NCBI RefSeq assembly: GCF_007556585.1
Contig: NZ_VJNA01000008.1
Span: 1-64,000 of the forward strand
Source: Tepidimonas aquatica
GTDB taxonomy: Bacteria > Pseudomonadota > Gammaproteobacteria > Burkholderiales > Burkholderiaceae_C
DNA: 64,000 bases
Direction: 5' to 3'
Part shown: one piece after another, positions 58,492 to 63,565 of the stretch
How the letters are laid out: every line of letters starts with the position of its first letter
Position numbering within the stretch: the stretch's first letter is position 1
Notes under the pieces: generated by a model
What the model was told of the DNA's origin: nothing
What the model saw: the letters and a program-made list of their open reading frames with translations, nothing else
Databases searched by the model: none
Position numbers and translations under genes: made by a program

Positions 58492-58507
58492 GCCGCCCCT
58501 ACCCGTG

Positions 58508-58906
58508 ATGCTGTCGCGCGCCCAAGCCCTGGGACTGGTGGCCTTGACGCTGATGTGGGGCGTCAACTGGCCGGTCATGAAACTGTCGCTGCAGGAGCTC
58601 TCGCCCCTGTTCTTCCGCGCCGTGACGATGACCGGCGGCGCGCTGTGGCTGTTCGCGTTCTATCGCTGGCGCGGTGTGCGCCTGCCGCCCCGGCGCAGCG
58701 AGTGGCGCAGCATCGTCACGCTGGCACTGCCCAACATGCTGGGCTGGCACACGCTGGCCATCTTTGGCGTGGCCGCCCTGGCGTCCGGGCGGGCGGCCAT
58801 CCTGGGCTTTACCATGCCGGTGTGGACGGTGCTGCTGGGGGCACTGTTCTTCGGCCAGCCGCTGACGCGGCGCACCTCCGTGGCGGCGGTGGCGGTGGTG
58901 CGGTAG
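58508..58906 (+). pseudogene. EamA/DMT-family transporter, 3' half lost
   Basis: 132 codons encode only the first four or five helices of an EamA transporter (GLVALTLMWGVNWPVMKLSLQELSPLFFRAVTMTGGALWLF). Homologues have about 280-300 residues and ten helices. After AVAVV the sequence abruptly becomes the reverse complement of an unrelated antiporter gene and a stop follows. So the gene is broken by a rearrangement at about 58,900. Confidence 0.88.
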
Positions 58907-59314
58907 GCCAGCAGCACGCCGTCTTCCCAGCGCGCGATCTCCCGGCCGCTCATGAAGATGGGCAGGCAGGCCAGCAGCGTGGCCACCCACCATCACCCAC
59001 AGATCGAAGTTCAGGACAGCTTCGGAAATGGGCAGGCCACGGGGCGCCACCACGCCGGCCAGGCCCAGGCAGACAAGGATGTTGAAAATGTTGCTGCCCA
59101 CCAGGTTGTCCACGACCAGATCGATGGTGCCGTTGGCGGCTGCGCCCACCGACACCGCCATCTCCGGCGCACTGGTGCCGAGGGCCACGATGGTCAAGCC
59201 TACCACCAGGGGCGAGATCCCCCAGGACAGTGACGACCGCGCGGCGCCGCGCGTGAGGCCCTCAGCCCCTGCCACCAGGACGACCACGCCAACGATGAGC
59301 AAAACGATGGACAT
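58901..59314 (-). pseudogene. calcium/sodium antiporter, truncated and frameshifted
   Basis: Starts MSIVLLIVGVVVLVAGAEGL with AAGGAGG 8 bases upstream and has the first Na_Ca_ex alpha motif (VALGTSAPEMAVSVGAAANGTIDLVVDNLVGSNIFNI). After LNFDLWVMV the frame breaks at a GTGGGTGG tandem duplication; the correct continuation (ATLLACLPIFMSGREIARWEDGVLLAY) is in another frame. The gene then stops at the breakpoint near 58,900, so the second half is missing. Distinct in sequence from the intact antiporter at 22256. Confidence 0.85.
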
Positions 59315-59406
59315 AGCGTGGACCTCCTTCCCCGGATGCAATGTGGCGCCATCGTGCCATAGAGGCACACCTGGCCGCAGACCGACAGAACGAACCGTTT
59401 GTTTGT

Positions 59407-59412
59407 TATAAT
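59407..59412 (+). promoter_or_regulatory. -10 element of the HTH-cupin-methyltransferase gene
   Basis: A perfect TATAAT, 33 bases before the GTG start, in an AT-rich patch (TTTGTTTGTTATAATGAAC). No strong -35 at 17 bases, so an activator or an extended element may be needed. Confidence 0.6.
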
Positions 59413-59444
59413 GAACTCACATCGATATCTATCAGGAAAACCTC

Positions 59445-61448
59445 GTGAGCACCGTCTCAGCCATCGGCAGGAATCTGCTCCGATTTAGGGAACAGCGAGG
59501 GCTCACGCTGGCGGGCTTGTCCGAGCGCAGCGGGGTGGCGAAATCGACCTTGTCGCAGCTGGAAAACGGCGAGGGCAACCCCACGATCGAGACCCTGTGG
59601 GCTGTGGCTAACGCCCTGGGAGTGCCCTTCGGCCAGCTGGTCAACGAGGAACTGAGCGACGGCGGCGAGCTGTCGGACAAGGGGGTGATTGTTCGATTAA
59701 TCGAAAAATCGACCGACGACCCCGAGATCGAGGTCTATCTGATCGAACTGCGGCCAGGCTGCCGCAAGGACTCCGCCCCGCATCCGGAAGGGGTGAAGGA
59801 ACGCATCACGGTGCTGTCCGGGGCCATGCTGGTGGGGCAGGCCGACCGGCCGCGCATGGTGAGGGCTGGCGACACTCACACCTTCGACGCCGATGTGCCG
59901 CATGTGTACGCGGCCACCGAGCAAGGCGGCCGGGCCATGGTGGTGATCGTGTATCCGCCCAAGACCTATTCGGCCAGTGCCTCCACGCTCTACCTAGAGT
60001 GGCCCCAGGCCCCGAGCGCCTGGGAGGGGGTGCGCAGCGTGATGGAGCGCGCCCTGCTGGAGGTGTCCAACGGCCTGGGCGCGCGCATCCTGCGACTGCG
60101 CGGTGAGCCGCTCAATGGGCGTGACGGCCTGCTCAAGCTGCGCCAGATGCAGCACGAGGCCACCGCCGGTCCCTGGCGCTGGCCGGTGCTGTCGCTGGTG
60201 GAAGACGACGCCCAGGGGCCGTATGTCGCCGTGGTGCCCATGCCCCTGACCGGAGCCTTTGCCCAACCCGACCAGGCACCGCCCGCCTGGGCCAACGCCG
60301 ACCTGCCGGCTGCCGCCATCCGCCTAGCCCGGCTGGCGGAATCGCCCTTCATCGAGCTTGGCGCGCCCGAAACGGCTGCGATCCAGGCTTATTTGGAGGG
60401 CCACAGCTGGGTGCTCAACAGCCTGGCCGCTGAGGTGCTGCTGCAGCGGGGGCGCATGTGCATGCCGCGGCAGCTGCATCACGTGCGCCCGGCGCCCGCA
60501 GCGGCGCAGCGCGGCGGCCGGGACGGGCCGTTCTCCAGCCGCATCGACGTGGAGCAGTACGATACCTTCGAGCTGCTGCACCCCGCCTACGCCCGCCAAG
60601 TAGTGGCCGCCGCCCAGGATATCGCAAGCTTCGCCGGACCGCAGCCCGCCTTGCAGGCCATCGACGTGGGCGCAGGGCCGGGTCTGCCGTTGCTGATGCT
60701 GCACGAGCTGCATCCGGGTTGCCGTTTCCTGGCCGTCGAACCCGACGAGGCGGCGTTTGTGTGCCTGCAGCGCAATGCCCACGGGGTTGAGGGCATCGAG
60801 CTGCATCACGGCGGCTTCCTGGAGCTCGACCTGCCGAGCGGCGAGACACCGCTCATCACCTCTTTCGGCGCCTCGCACCACTTCAACACAGCCTTCATGC
60901 TGCAAAAGGCCATGCAGCTGCTGCAGCCCGGCGGGCTGCTGGTGGTGGCCGACGAGTTCCTGCCCGAATTCGCCAGCGTGGATGAACGCAACCTCGCCCT
61001 GGTGCGCCACCACAGCGCCTACCTGCTGGCCAGCATGGCCTGGGTGGGTGAGCCGCCGGCCTCCGAAGGGGGGCTGGACCTCAGGCTCTACCGCGACTTG
61101 CGCCGCTCCATCATCATGGCCATGGTCGCGGCCACCGAGGGCAAAACGAACCAGGCGGTGAGCCTGTGCCGTAACCTGTATGCGCGCCTGTGCGAGTCCG
61201 GTTTGCGCGAGCGCCCTGCACATGAGATCGGGGCCTTCGTGCGCTTCTACTGGCTGGAGCTGCAGGCCATGGTGGCCGGCTTCGACTACGAGGTCGAGCG
61301 CAAGACCTTCCCGCGCCGCTTTGCCGGGCTGGCCGCGCTGGCCGGGTTGGAGTTGCGCCGCCACCGCCGGGTGTTTGCCACCACCGGCAGCGACGACTGG
61401 GGCGGGGGCACCCATGTCTTCACCTTCAGCAAGCCGGAGGGCGCATGA
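59445..61448 (+). CDS. HTH-cupin regulator fused to a SAM-dependent methyltransferase
   Basis: 667 residues, one uninterrupted frame. Residues 9-66: XRE-type HTH (REQRGLTLAGLSERSGVAKSTLSQLENG). Residues 95-172: cupin sensor barrel (LRPGCRKDSAPHPEGVKERITVLSGAMLVG; HTFDADVPHVYAA). Residues 180-345: an unrecognised alpha/beta region containing MQHEATAGPWRWPVLSLVEDD. Residues 370-660: a methyltransferase-like domain with motif I AIDVGAGPGLPLL (405-417), an acidic residue in FLAVEPDE, and FGASHHFNT. HTH-cupin regulators normally end near residue 190, so the fusion is unusual. GTG start; stop overlaps azlC (ATGA). Regulation of azlCD and a methylated substrate or self-methylation are inferences. 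Confidence 0.85.
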   Translation: MSTVSAIGRNLLRFREQRGLTLAGLSERSGVAKSTLSQLENGEGNPTIETLWAVANALGVPFGQLVNEELSDGGELSDKGVIVRLIEKSTDDPEIEVYLIELRPGCRKDSAPHPEGVKERITVLSGAMLVGQADRPRMVRAGDTHTFDADVPHVYAATEQGGRAMVVIVYPPKTYSASASTLYLEWPQAPSAWEGVRSVMERALLEVSNGLGARILRLRGEPLNGRDGLLKLRQMQHEATAGPWRWPVLSLVEDDAQGPYVAVVPMPLTGAFAQPDQAPPAWANADLPAAAIRLARLAESPFIELGAPETAAIQAYLEGHSWVLNSLAAEVLLQRGRMCMPRQLHHVRPAPAAAQRGGRDGPFSSRIDVEQYDTFELLHPAYARQVVAAAQDIASFAGPQPALQAIDVGAGPGLPLLMLHELHPGCRFLAVEPDEAAFVCLQRNAHGVEGIELHHGGFLELDLPSGETPLITSFGASHHFNTAFMLQKAMQLLQPGGLLVVADEFLPEFASVDERNLALVRHHSAYLLASMAWVGEPPASEGGLDLRLYRDLRRSIIMAMVAATEGKTNQAVSLCRNLYARLCESGLRERPAHEIGAFVRFYWLELQAMVAGFDYEVERKTFPRRFAGLAALAGLELRRHRRVFATTGSDDWGGGTHVFTFSKPEGA

Positions 61449-62152
61449 CGCGGCAGGTGCTGCGCGGCCTGGGCGACAGCCTGGCCATTGCAGCGGGCTA
61501 CGTGCCCGTGGCTTTTTCTTTCGGGCTGGCCGCCGTTCAGATGGGTTTGGGGGCTCCATGGGCCGTGGCCATCTCAGCCATCGTTTTTGCAGGGGCCAGC
61601 CAGTTCGTGCTGGTGTCCCTGCTCGCCGCCGGCGGCGGGCCGCTGACGGTGGTGCCCACCATCTGGCTGCTCAATGCCCGCCATCTGCTCTACGGTCGGG
61701 TGGTGGCCGAACAGCTCGCGCAGGCGCGCCCGGCCCGCGTGCGCCCGGCCCTGGCCTTTGGCCTGACCGACGAAGTCTTCGCCTGCGCGGCCGCGCGTTT
61801 GCCCACCCTGGCCCCGGCCCAGCGCGCGGGCTGGCTGGCTGGCCTGCAGGCCGGGGCTTATGGCGCGTGGATCGCTGGCACCTGGCTGGGGGCCGAGACC
61901 GGCGCCCAGCTGGTGGACCGGATCCCCCTGCTGCAGGAGGCTTTGCAGTTCGTGCTGCCGGCGCTCTTCCTGTCGCTGCTGCTGCAGATGGGGGTGCACG
62001 GACGTGGCCGGGCGCTGTGGGGGGCGGCGGGTGTCACGCTGCTGGGCCTGGCCCTGGGCCCGGCCCATGTGGCCATCCCGGCCGGCATGCTGGCCGGTGC
62101 GGCCCTCCAGTTGCTGCAGGCACACGTGGACGAGGACGGCGACGATGAGTGA
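61445..62152 (+). CDS. azlC: AzlC-type amino-acid exporter large subunit
   Basis: 235 residues, about seven helices. Signature [41 protein letters not shown] and WLLNARHLLYGRVVAE. AzlC with AzlD (YgaZH) exports branched-chain amino acids or methionine. ATG overlaps the regulator's stop and its own stop overlaps azlD by 8 bases, so all three are translationally coupled. Confidence 0.92.
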   Translation: MTRQVLRGLGDSLAIAAGYVPVAFSFGLAAVQMGLGAPWAVAISAIVFAGASQFVLVSLLAAGGGPLTVVPTIWLLNARHLLYGRVVAEQLAQARPARVRPALAFGLTDEVFACAAARLPTLAPAQRAGWLAGLQAGAYGAWIAGTWLGAETGAQLVDRIPLLQEALQFVLPALFLSLLLQMGVHGRGRALWGAAGVTLLGLALGPAHVAIPAGMLAGAALQLLQAHVDEDGDDE

Positions 62153-62486
62153 AGCCGGCTGGATACAGCTGCTGACCGTGCTGGCCTGTGGGCTGGGCAC
62201 CTTCCTGCTGCGCTCCTTGCCCTTCTGGTGGGGGCTGCGTCAAAGTACCGAGCGTTCGAACCTTATCCGCCGCTGGTCCTCGGCCATCGGCCCGGCCGCC
62301 ATCGCCGCCCTGCTGGTGGCCTCGCTCTTCCCCCTGCTGTGGCCAGCCGCCGGCCCCACCCGCGCCCTGCCCACGGCCGTTGCCATCGCCGCCGTGATCC
62401 TCCTCCAGCGCCTGCGCGGGGGGCTGGCGGCCTCCACGCTGCTGGGCACGGGGGTGTATGCGTTGATGTTGTGGGTGAGCGGGTGA
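62145..62486 (+). CDS. azlD: AzlD-type exporter small subunit
   Basis: 113 residues with three to four helices: QLLTVLACGLGTFLLRSLPFWW, IGPAAIAALLVASLFPLLW, AVAIAAVILLQRLRGGLAAS and LLGTGVYALMLWVSG. Starts MSEAGWIQ inside the azlC 3' end. Confidence 0.9.
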   Translation: MSEAGWIQLLTVLACGLGTFLLRSLPFWWGLRQSTERSNLIRRWSSAIGPAAIAALLVASLFPLLWPAAGPTRALPTAVAIAAVILLQRLRGGLAASTLLGTGVYALMLWVSG

Positions 62487-62612: not shown

Positions 62613-63270
62613 GTGAAGTTTGCCCGCCCTGCCACAGACGATTTCTTCCGCTCGCGCATCGATCACATGATCGATCTGCGCCACCCGCTGGCGGTGCTGG
62701 CCTCTCGCATGCCCTGACAGCAAATCGGAGGATCGGTGGCGCATCTGTTGTCGCGCAAGGCGCGCTCGGGCATCGCCATGCCCGATCTCGATCTGTTTGG
62801 TGAACAGGTGCAGCGCCGCGAACGCTTGAGCCACGCGGGGCGCCCGCGCGTGCCGCTGCGCATCATGATCAGCCTCCTGTATCTCAAGCACGCCTTCAAC
62901 GAGTCGGACGAAGGGGTGGTCGAGCGCTGGCGCAATGCTGGCGCGACTGTATCAGCAAGGGCAAGGCCCGAACACCCTACGAATTCGGCGTCAAGGCGGG
63001 CATTGCCAGCACGCTCAAGGGCAACCTGATCGTGGGTGCGCGGGCCTTCCATGGCCATCCGTATGACGGACACACCCTGCGCGAACAGCTCGAGCAGGCC
63101 ACGATCCTGATGCAAGACTGTGCGGTCGAGCCCGCGACGGTGTTCGTCGATCGGGGCTACCGGGGGGTGGATGCGCTGCAACTCGGATGTGCGCATCGTG
63201 CACCGAGGCAAGACCCCACAGATCAGCAAGCAGGAGAGTAAGCTGCTCCGGCCACGAAAACATCGAGCCC
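62613..63270 (+). pseudogene. IS5-family transposase remnant
   Basis: The N-terminal part reads KFARPATDDFFRSRIDHMIDLRHPLAVLASRMP; a TGA then sits where the family has Trp (MPWQ). The same frame resumes (DLDLFGEQVQRRERLSHAGRPRVPLRIMISLLYLKHAFNESDEGVVERWRNAG). The catalytic centre is deleted at about 62,945. The next segment (SKGKARTPYEFGVKAG...ARAFHGHPYDGHTLREQLEQA...VFVDRGYRGVDA) is in another frame and a second frameshift follows near 63,185. Non-functional. Terminal inverted repeats were not recognised. Confidence 0.85.
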
Positions 63271-63289
63271 ATCCCCTCTTTTGCGCCTG

Positions 63290-63565
63290 TTGCGGCAGGC
63301 CGAGGCGGGGGTGGGGGCGATATCGCTCAGGCCAGGCTCGATGCACGCAAAACTGGGGCTCGGGTGAAAATTTCAGGGGCGACTGAGTGTACCTGGCTTA
63401 TAACCTAGGCTCACAGCATCGGCGTAACTCTGCACCCGTGTACCGAGTCAACGAAAGCAGAGTTTTCAGACCCCTTCCTGTTTGCGGCTGATAACCGCCG
63501 TCTCGCGAGGGATTCGACCGAGAAATTCGTATCCGCGACCTGCCCGCCCCTGAACCGCGCGTTCC
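63290..63565. other. gene-free junction between the IS remnant and dcd
   Basis: No coding sequence supported. Likely contains the decayed right end of the IS remnant. CTCTGC (about 63,428) and GCAGAG (about 63,448) could form a weak stem. Otherwise nothing recognised. Confidence 0.3.

Follow-up and report, generated by a model that had tools for sequence, protein, structure and literature searches.

Here we describe a gene fusion heading a three-gene operon in Tepidimonas aquatica, within a stretch of 64,000 nucleotides (contig NZ_VJNA01000008.1, positions 1 to 64,000) that is referred to, at its full length, as the window. A single open frame joins a helix-turn-helix (HTH) domain of the XRE type, a cupin, a middle domain and a methyltransferase domain dependent on S-adenosylmethionine (SAM), and is followed by azlC and azlD (Table 1). 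The original prediction, made from the letters of the DNA, had proposed this 667-residue frame with its four parts, a regulator in the first third, a methyltransferase-like region at the end and overlaps between all three genes, and it has held on each point: the open frame and Pfam matches bear out the architecture, the HTH_3 and Cupin_2 matches and that to the solved protein 1Y9Q identify the regulator, and a class I SAM fold is present in the model of the methyltransferase region. The fusion and azlC overlap by 4 nucleotides (ATGA, 61445-61448) and azlC and azlD by 8 (62145-62152), overlaps from which translational coupling of the three genes may be expected. In the C-terminal part of the fusion, Pfam places Methyltransf_25 at residues 406-497 (36 bits, cut-off 27) and Methyltransf_11 at 406-501, motif I reads DVGAGPGLP (residues 407-415), and within residues ~170-400 there is no Pfam match up to an E-value of 1. 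The genome holds one copy of the fusion, its only other match being weak and confined to residues 5-95 (E 3.9e-4).

Table 1. Features of the fusion operon, in positions of the window.
Feature	Position	Strand	Description
Putative operator	59401..59416	+	GTTTGTTATAATGAAC; 7/8 to GTTC-N8-GAAC; overlaps TATAAT hexamer 59407-59412
XRE-cupin-middle-methyltransferase fusion gene	59445..61448	+	single open frame, GTG start, TGA stop, 667 amino acids
HTH_3 (XRE) DNA-binding domain	59481..59633	+	residues 13-63, Pfam E 2.7e-16
Cupin_2 domain	59739..59951	+	residues 99-169, Pfam 27.7 bits, just over cut-off 27.2
Middle domain	59982..60494	+	residues ~180-350; alpha/beta unit and helices in model; weakly conserved
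Class I SAM-dependent methyltransferase domain	60540..61439	+	residues ~366-665 by fold; Pfam, fold, conservation
azlC, predicted large subunit of amino-acid exporter	61445..62152	+	AzlC PF03591 E 2.6e-35
azlD, predicted small subunit of amino-acid exporter	62145..62486	+	113 amino acids; AzlD PF05437 E 2.5e-11

Scattered groups of bacteria carry this set of three genes. Full-length fusions were fetched at 28 loci (L001 being the window's own), which hold 23 distinct sequences, the window's included, each in one frame with all domains; this number of intact frames rules out a split gene or frameshift artefact. Although the loci were collected by similarity to the fusion and not to azlCD, azlC and azlD lie directly downstream in all 28 of them (23/23 distinct sequences), the AzlC match beginning no more than ~34 nucleotides beyond the end of the fusion frame, and the neighbourhood survey bears out the pairing singled out by the original prediction. 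The relatives share between 36% (L029, L041, L042; 39% for L036) and 99.6% of their residues with the window protein, and three of them (L013, L014 and L015) are near-copies with 3, 3 and 8 differences in 667 residues. A scan of genome contigs yielded 14 loci, from Tepidimonas (2), a Hydrogenophaga metagenome-assembled genome (MAG), Caldimonas (2), Candidatus Thiobius, Halomonas (3), Vreelandella, Stenotrophomonas, Acidithiobacillus (2) and a Proteobacteria MAG. In whole-genome samples, whose counts are lower bounds because most searches scored few candidates per genome, the full-length fusion was found in 6 of 299 genomes of the family (own included; a short match of ~180 residues in 5, E<=1e-20) and in 3 of 369 of the class (own included, beside 6 short matches), and the window's own was the sole match among 300 genomes of the order (E<=1e-40) and, with the C-terminal part as query, among 398 of the phylum (E<=1e-25); it was further present in 3/47 genomes of the order of genome G909 and in 2/201 of the family of G951. 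The three other genomes of the window's genus in the 299-genome sample gave no match, and the distribution is therefore patchy. The fusion may have arisen once or more than once: in a 26-row tree built from the N-terminal ~195 residues, in which two long branches are joined, the best topology has two changes, and 28% of the bootstrap trees have a single one.

Three loci stand outside the 28-locus count. In Halomonas olivaria (L026, 5899-7954) the fusion homologue is spread across several frames, through either decay or assembly errors, and neither profiles nor tblastn with two relatives (E 1e-3) detected azlC or azlD in its 13.9-kb locus; in Cereibacter sphaeroides EBL0706 plasmid p.A (L037, 6322-8638) the fusion gene is interrupted by transposase genes of the IS21 family, with azlC and azlD intact. 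These two are the exceptions to the finding that homologues are not split; the third (L038) is a stand-alone methyltransferase, considered below. The flanks of nine loci, compared by eye on mechanically called open reading frames (ORFs) with a family search for three transposase-like or insertion-related ORFs only, differ apart from some common to two Caldimonas loci, and the module is therefore taken to comprise the fusion, azlC and azlD. In the window, a block at 58903-62480 aligns to these two Caldimonas loci at 72-85% DNA identity and ends there. As in AzlCD exporters of the LIV-E family, AzlC and AzlD are encoded by adjacent genes, both above the curated cut-offs of PF03591 and PF05437; the curated NCBIfam scores are missed for AzlC (TIGR00346, 64 of 332.35 bits) and YgaH (NF007711, 22 of 124 bits). 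The pair is a predicted amino-acid exporter. Pumps of this type are described as exporting branched-chain amino acids, methionine and homoserine (PMC8140960, PMC10882977), and that of B. subtilis as exporting histidine, azaleucine and probably asparagine (PMC10882977). In Acidithiobacillus sp. HP-2 the module is followed by a gene that was identified by eye as encoding an exporter of the LysE/RhtB type (L025, 9230-9832).

The sensor part consists of an XRE HTH and a single cupin, both above curated cut-offs, and its best solved match is Vibrio cholerae 1Y9Q (E 9.6e-18 over residues 5-173), which also heads the Foldseek list. All 15 sequences of alignment A1 keep the cupin residues H113, E119 and H153, as would be expected of a cupin that holds a metal. 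A published paper reports D-methionine in the 1Y9Q cupin pocket. In its account, XRE-cupin factors are specialised repressors that act locally, adjoin enzymes and small-molecule transporters and are exchanged horizontally as gene groups, and palindromic motifs are reported for three of them (PMC7901475). Short XRE-cupin forms of 175-192 amino acids were also recovered, and five of the six class-level short matches (L030-L034) are genes for 175-180 amino acids followed on the same strand by azlC and azlD; azlC is divergent at the sixth (L035) and at a family-level match (L008), and neither azlC nor azlD occurs in the ~1.5 kb fetched on either side of four other short genes (L009-L012). Short regulators head azlCD operons of their own, and the fusion therefore occupies a place open to an ordinary regulator; it would repress azlCD in response to a metabolite.

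A palindrome with an A+T-rich centre, GTTC-N8-GAAC, lies upstream of fusion and short-form genes alike. In 16 fusion upstream regions of at most 100 base pairs (bp), which include the near-copies L004 and L005, it is complete in 9 and matched at 7/8 or better in 14, whereas 1000 dinucleotide shuffles attained that level in 0.5 regions on average and in 5/16 at most, and other spacers (2 to 15) reach no more than 4/16; over all distinct fusions the count is 18/23. With the pattern fixed beforehand, it was found at 7/8 or better within 120 bp of 10 of 11 short forms (near-copies L010 and L011 included), several of which have two sites. The five azlCD-linked short forms, to which the corresponding shuffle control was applied, have it in 4/5, where 2000 single-base shuffles averaged 0.18 and never exceeded 3/5. 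This is comparative sequence evidence for a palindromic operator of the kind associated with XRE-cupin factors, and its presence in both forms suggests autorepression; repression is likewise suggested by the position of the palindrome over the -10 region. Within the window alone the site is unremarkable (25 matches with at most one mismatch, 15.3 expected), and the promoter scan called no full sigma-70 promoter there. The string GTTC is absent from the main text of PMC7901475, the papers not having been otherwise searched for the motif. A perfect 14-base palindrome of operator-like appearance, TTCGATTAATCGAA, lies at 59692-59705 within the fusion gene, in the stretch that separates its HTH_3 match from its Cupin_2 match, and is either a second site or chance.

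Conservation along the fusion was followed in A1, together with a wider alignment (A5) that adds Streptomyces, Cereibacter and L029 proteins and a third (A3) narrower than A5. Mean pairwise identity in A1 is 0.61 for the HTH, 0.49 for the cupin and 0.32 for the middle domain, and 0.58, 0.45 and 0.64 for the core, lid and end of the methyltransferase; when the window is compared with C. caldifontis (L016), the ratio of nonsynonymous to synonymous substitution rates (dN/dS) is 0.026 in the HTH, 0.055 in the cupin, 0.185 in the middle domain and 0.062 in the methyltransferase. These ratios indicate purifying selection on the methyltransferase, as on the cupin. For the middle domain Foldseek returned no PDB match at E<=0.001, and a second structural comparison gave the IF3 C-terminal domain as its best match (Z 8.0, 4.2 Å, 91 residues), perhaps reflecting only a common arrangement; such model comparisons do not demonstrate a new fold.

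The methyltransferase model (pLDDT, the predicted local distance difference test, 82) combines the Rossmann-like fold, GxGxG motif I and acidic motif II of class I SAM methyltransferases. The residues of the SAM motif (D407, G409, G411, G413, E432, D434) are invariant in A1, as are S477, H478, N481, H522, H523, D614, E616, K620 and T621, which are expected to lie on the substrate side, and H479 nearly so. In A5 the glycines, the HH pair, the second HH, D614, K620 and T621 are kept, position 432 is E or D, and D407, D434, S477 and E616 vary. By fold, the model ranks closest to BVU_3255 (Z 21.2, 3.1 Å, 188 residues), CysG 9fcu (Z 21.1, 2.8 Å, 209), BH2331 (Z 20.8, 2.5 Å, 175) and MM_2633 (Z 20.6, 3.2 Å, 209), and with profile A5 searched against the PDB the best matches are CysG/BelI (E from 1.7e-8), with the HH pair aligned to two of the three metal ligands; the A1-invariant D614 could not be superposed on the third, CysG D191. 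According to the published account, the substrate of CysG is 3-isopropylmalate, an acid of a pathway parallel to leucine biosynthesis, which the enzyme methylates on its C1 carboxyl with a His-His-Asp (HHD) metal site, and CysG and BelI O-methylate branched malates (PMC11408123). The analogy suggests a branched acid as a reasonable first candidate substrate, no more, for the methyl transfer that the C-terminal part would carry out. NCBIfam methyltransferase names (CpaM, DVU_1556, BioC, Erm, CmoB, ArsM and others) appeared among low-E matches and were set aside, the cut-offs, where given, being far from reached.

A relative that stands alone was found in Streptomyces sp. NBC_01237 (L038:7629-9080), 36.5% identical over 99% of the methyltransferase domain, with a weakly similar middle region and most signature residues kept (GSGPG, VEPS, SHH, HHFVY, AGVDYDVERKT). 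It has no HTH, no cupin and no azlCD beside the gene, and the methyltransferase domain can therefore exist as a separate protein. Its gene overlaps the next ORF by 4 nucleotides, a PGM1-like ATP-grasp gene (PGM1_C, 25.3 bits, just above the cut-off of 22.5), and PGM1 is presumably a peptide ligase. ORFs in this record, which lacks annotation, were picked by hand, and the other Pfam matches nearby are AlkZ-like, subtilase, lipase, beta-lactamase-like, MerR, erythromycin esterase and DctM, so that no clear biosynthetic cluster is apparent and the adjoining ATP-grasp gene alone is suggestive. A relative of this kind, free of a DNA-binding part and in such company, suggests that the methyltransferase is an enzyme and not only a sensor. 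The original prediction had the regulator possibly modifying the exported metabolite, itself or a signal, and among these the stand-alone relative leans towards a small molecule.

Taken together, we tentatively propose, with a probability of roughly 45%, a self-regulated three-gene export module whose repressor senses an amino-acid-like metabolite, methylates that metabolite or a close relative and controls export. We infer that the XRE-cupin part, as a dimer, would bind GTTC-N8-GAAC over the -10 region of the promoter from which it is itself transcribed and repress the operon, and that an accumulating amino-acid-like metabolite would bind the cupin and lift repression, upon which AzlCD and more of the bifunctional protein would be made. 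The C-terminal part, as an active small-molecule methyltransferase, would then use SAM to methylate the metabolite or a close relative, and the methylated product would be exported, joining sensing, modification and export in one operon. A more detailed version is possible but distinctly more doubtful: the DNA-bound repressor would itself be the enzyme, its cupin would detect a branched-chain or methionine-like metabolite, the metabolite or its keto or hydroxy acid would be methylated (possibly by metal-assisted carboxyl methylation, as in CysG/BelI), AzlCD would expel the product, and the enzyme activity, by removing the inducer, would reset repression.

Several observations weigh against this proposal. 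The palindrome was spotted by eye in fusion upstream regions set side by side, the very sequences that were then shuffled, and the short-form score is for that reason the fairer test. At 7/8 or better it is missing from 5 of the 23 fusions (L024, L029, L036, L041, L042), with TTCC-N8-GGAA in its place at L029 and L036, as at the short form L030, and neither pattern upstream of L041 and L042. It also occurs at the short XRE-cupin genes without azlC or azlD within ~1.5 kb (L009-L012), and is therefore a mark of the regulator subfamily and not of export, the operator class being wider than azlCD control. In the methyltransferase, motif II has lost its second acidic residue (D434) in the divergent L038, L029 and L036, and H479 is replaced by R in L024. 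Several methyltransferase families tie by fold, the CysG/BelI match is limited to the SAM-binding core (profile 219-330), phosphoethanolamine methyltransferases led when the narrower A3 was used, and HH at this place is common in Methyltransf_11/12/25. Finally, only a single stand-alone relative was found, and next to the gene of a remoter relative in Streptomyces lies neither an ATP-grasp nor an AzlCD gene.

Other readings of the methyltransferase domain draw on the same evidence. It could act as a sensor of SAM or S-adenosylhomocysteine (SAH) that modulates repression and links methionine/SAM status to the export of methionine or branched-chain amino acids, as the kept SAM motifs, the D-methionine of the 1Y9Q cupin (PMC7901475) and the export of methionine by AzlCD relatives (PMC8140960) would allow. 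We consider this unlikely, since a pure sensor would have no use for the presumed substrate-side residues (SHH, HHxxY, AGFDYEVERKT), whose conservation roughly matches that of the SAM motif, and since the stand-alone Streptomyces relative lacks a DNA-binding part; an active small-molecule methyltransferase is favoured because those residues are kept and a relative free of the regulator exists. Less probable again is a substrate unrelated to export, with the enzyme fused only for dose co-regulation with the pump: a Streptomyces protein of middle and methyltransferase parts does occur apart from azlCD, but all 23 distinct full-length fusions have kept azlCD, and the sole copy without detectable azlC or azlD (L026) is itself broken over several frames.

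Methylation of a protein or nucleic acid as a form of regulation, whether of the fusion itself, the exporter or a ribosomal or tRNA target, seems improbable. A protein lysine methyltransferase and one acting on tRNA are among the weak matches and part of the middle domain at best resembles the IF3 C-terminal domain, but that Z-score of 8.0 falls in the range of common arrangements and the best profile matches are small-molecule enzymes. We give scarcely any credence to an ordinary XRE-cupin/AzlCD operon that carries its C-terminal part as a decaying passenger; the middle domain is fast-evolving, as its dN/dS of 0.185 and 32% mean identity indicate, but the methyltransferase, with a dN/dS of 0.062 and mean identities of 0.58, 0.45 and 0.64 in core, lid and end, does not fit such decay.

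The surroundings of the operon were examined for signs of mobility, the segment having been described as mobile-looking in the original prediction. A transposase remnant in pieces lies directly downstream of azlD (62736-63346, of which 62736-63029 matches DUF772), and upstream of the fusion a truncated Na/Ca exchanger gene (Na_Ca_ex, 58499-59368, minus strand) and a truncated EamA transporter gene (58505-58906, plus strand) meet near 58903 in what looks like a rearrangement junction. These remains and the patchy distribution favour the description, but composition does not: the G+C content of the segment is 68.4% (68.9% for the window) and G+C at third codon positions (GC3) is likewise not foreign, leaving a recent foreign origin of the module unsupported. 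A plasmid search gave matches in 37 records (E<=1e-20), of which a single one extends over 80% of the query, namely alphaproteobacterial Cereibacter azotoformans pORIO1, whose WP_011910862.1 ('methyltransferase domain-containing protein') is followed by AzlC and AzlD genes. A phage origin was rejected on searches in which 8 of 50,697 phage records matched at E<=1e-10, none of them over 80% of the query, and one scan of viral contigs with profile A5 gave no relative.

A repressor fused to a metabolic enzyme points to a metabolite that matters, because enzyme substrate and sensor ligand are probably linked. Strict AzlCD company in distant lineages yields a short candidate list of branched-chain amino acids, methionine, their acids or toxic analogues, which opens to direct test what AzlCD exporters do physiologically and which ligand an XRE-cupin repressor subfamily binds.

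Among known systems, XRE-cupin repressors are usually two-domain proteins of ~180-190 amino acids, and at 667 residues the fusion is therefore a derivative and not a plain member of that family. It shares with local repressors such as Pseudomonas ErfA, PauR, PsdR and their kin, and with V. cholerae 1Y9Q, an XRE HTH and cupin (residues 1-175), a palindromic site and a neighbouring transporter gene (PMC7901475), and differs from them, which lack an enzyme domain, in having two further domains. The CysG and BelI O-methyltransferases of cystargolide and belactosin align the HH of their HHD metal motif with that of the fusion family, but are proteins of 215-229 residues without a regulator part. 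With the AzlCD, BrnFE and YgaZH (LIV-E) exporters the operon has in common the AzlC and AzlD domain pair and overlapping genes; the published regulators differ, however, being an Lrp-type one for C. glutamicum BrnFE and in B. subtilis the repressor AzlB, which we take to be Lrp-type as well, in place of the XRE-cupin fusion found here. Full-text searches of open-licence PubMed Central (PMC) papers returned no description of the fusion. To call the whole an undescribed system, as the original prediction did, is nevertheless too strong, since XRE-cupin repressors beside transporter genes are known (PMC7901475): the operon logic of repressor, sensor and pump is of an already known kind, and the conserved methyltransferase arm is its new part.

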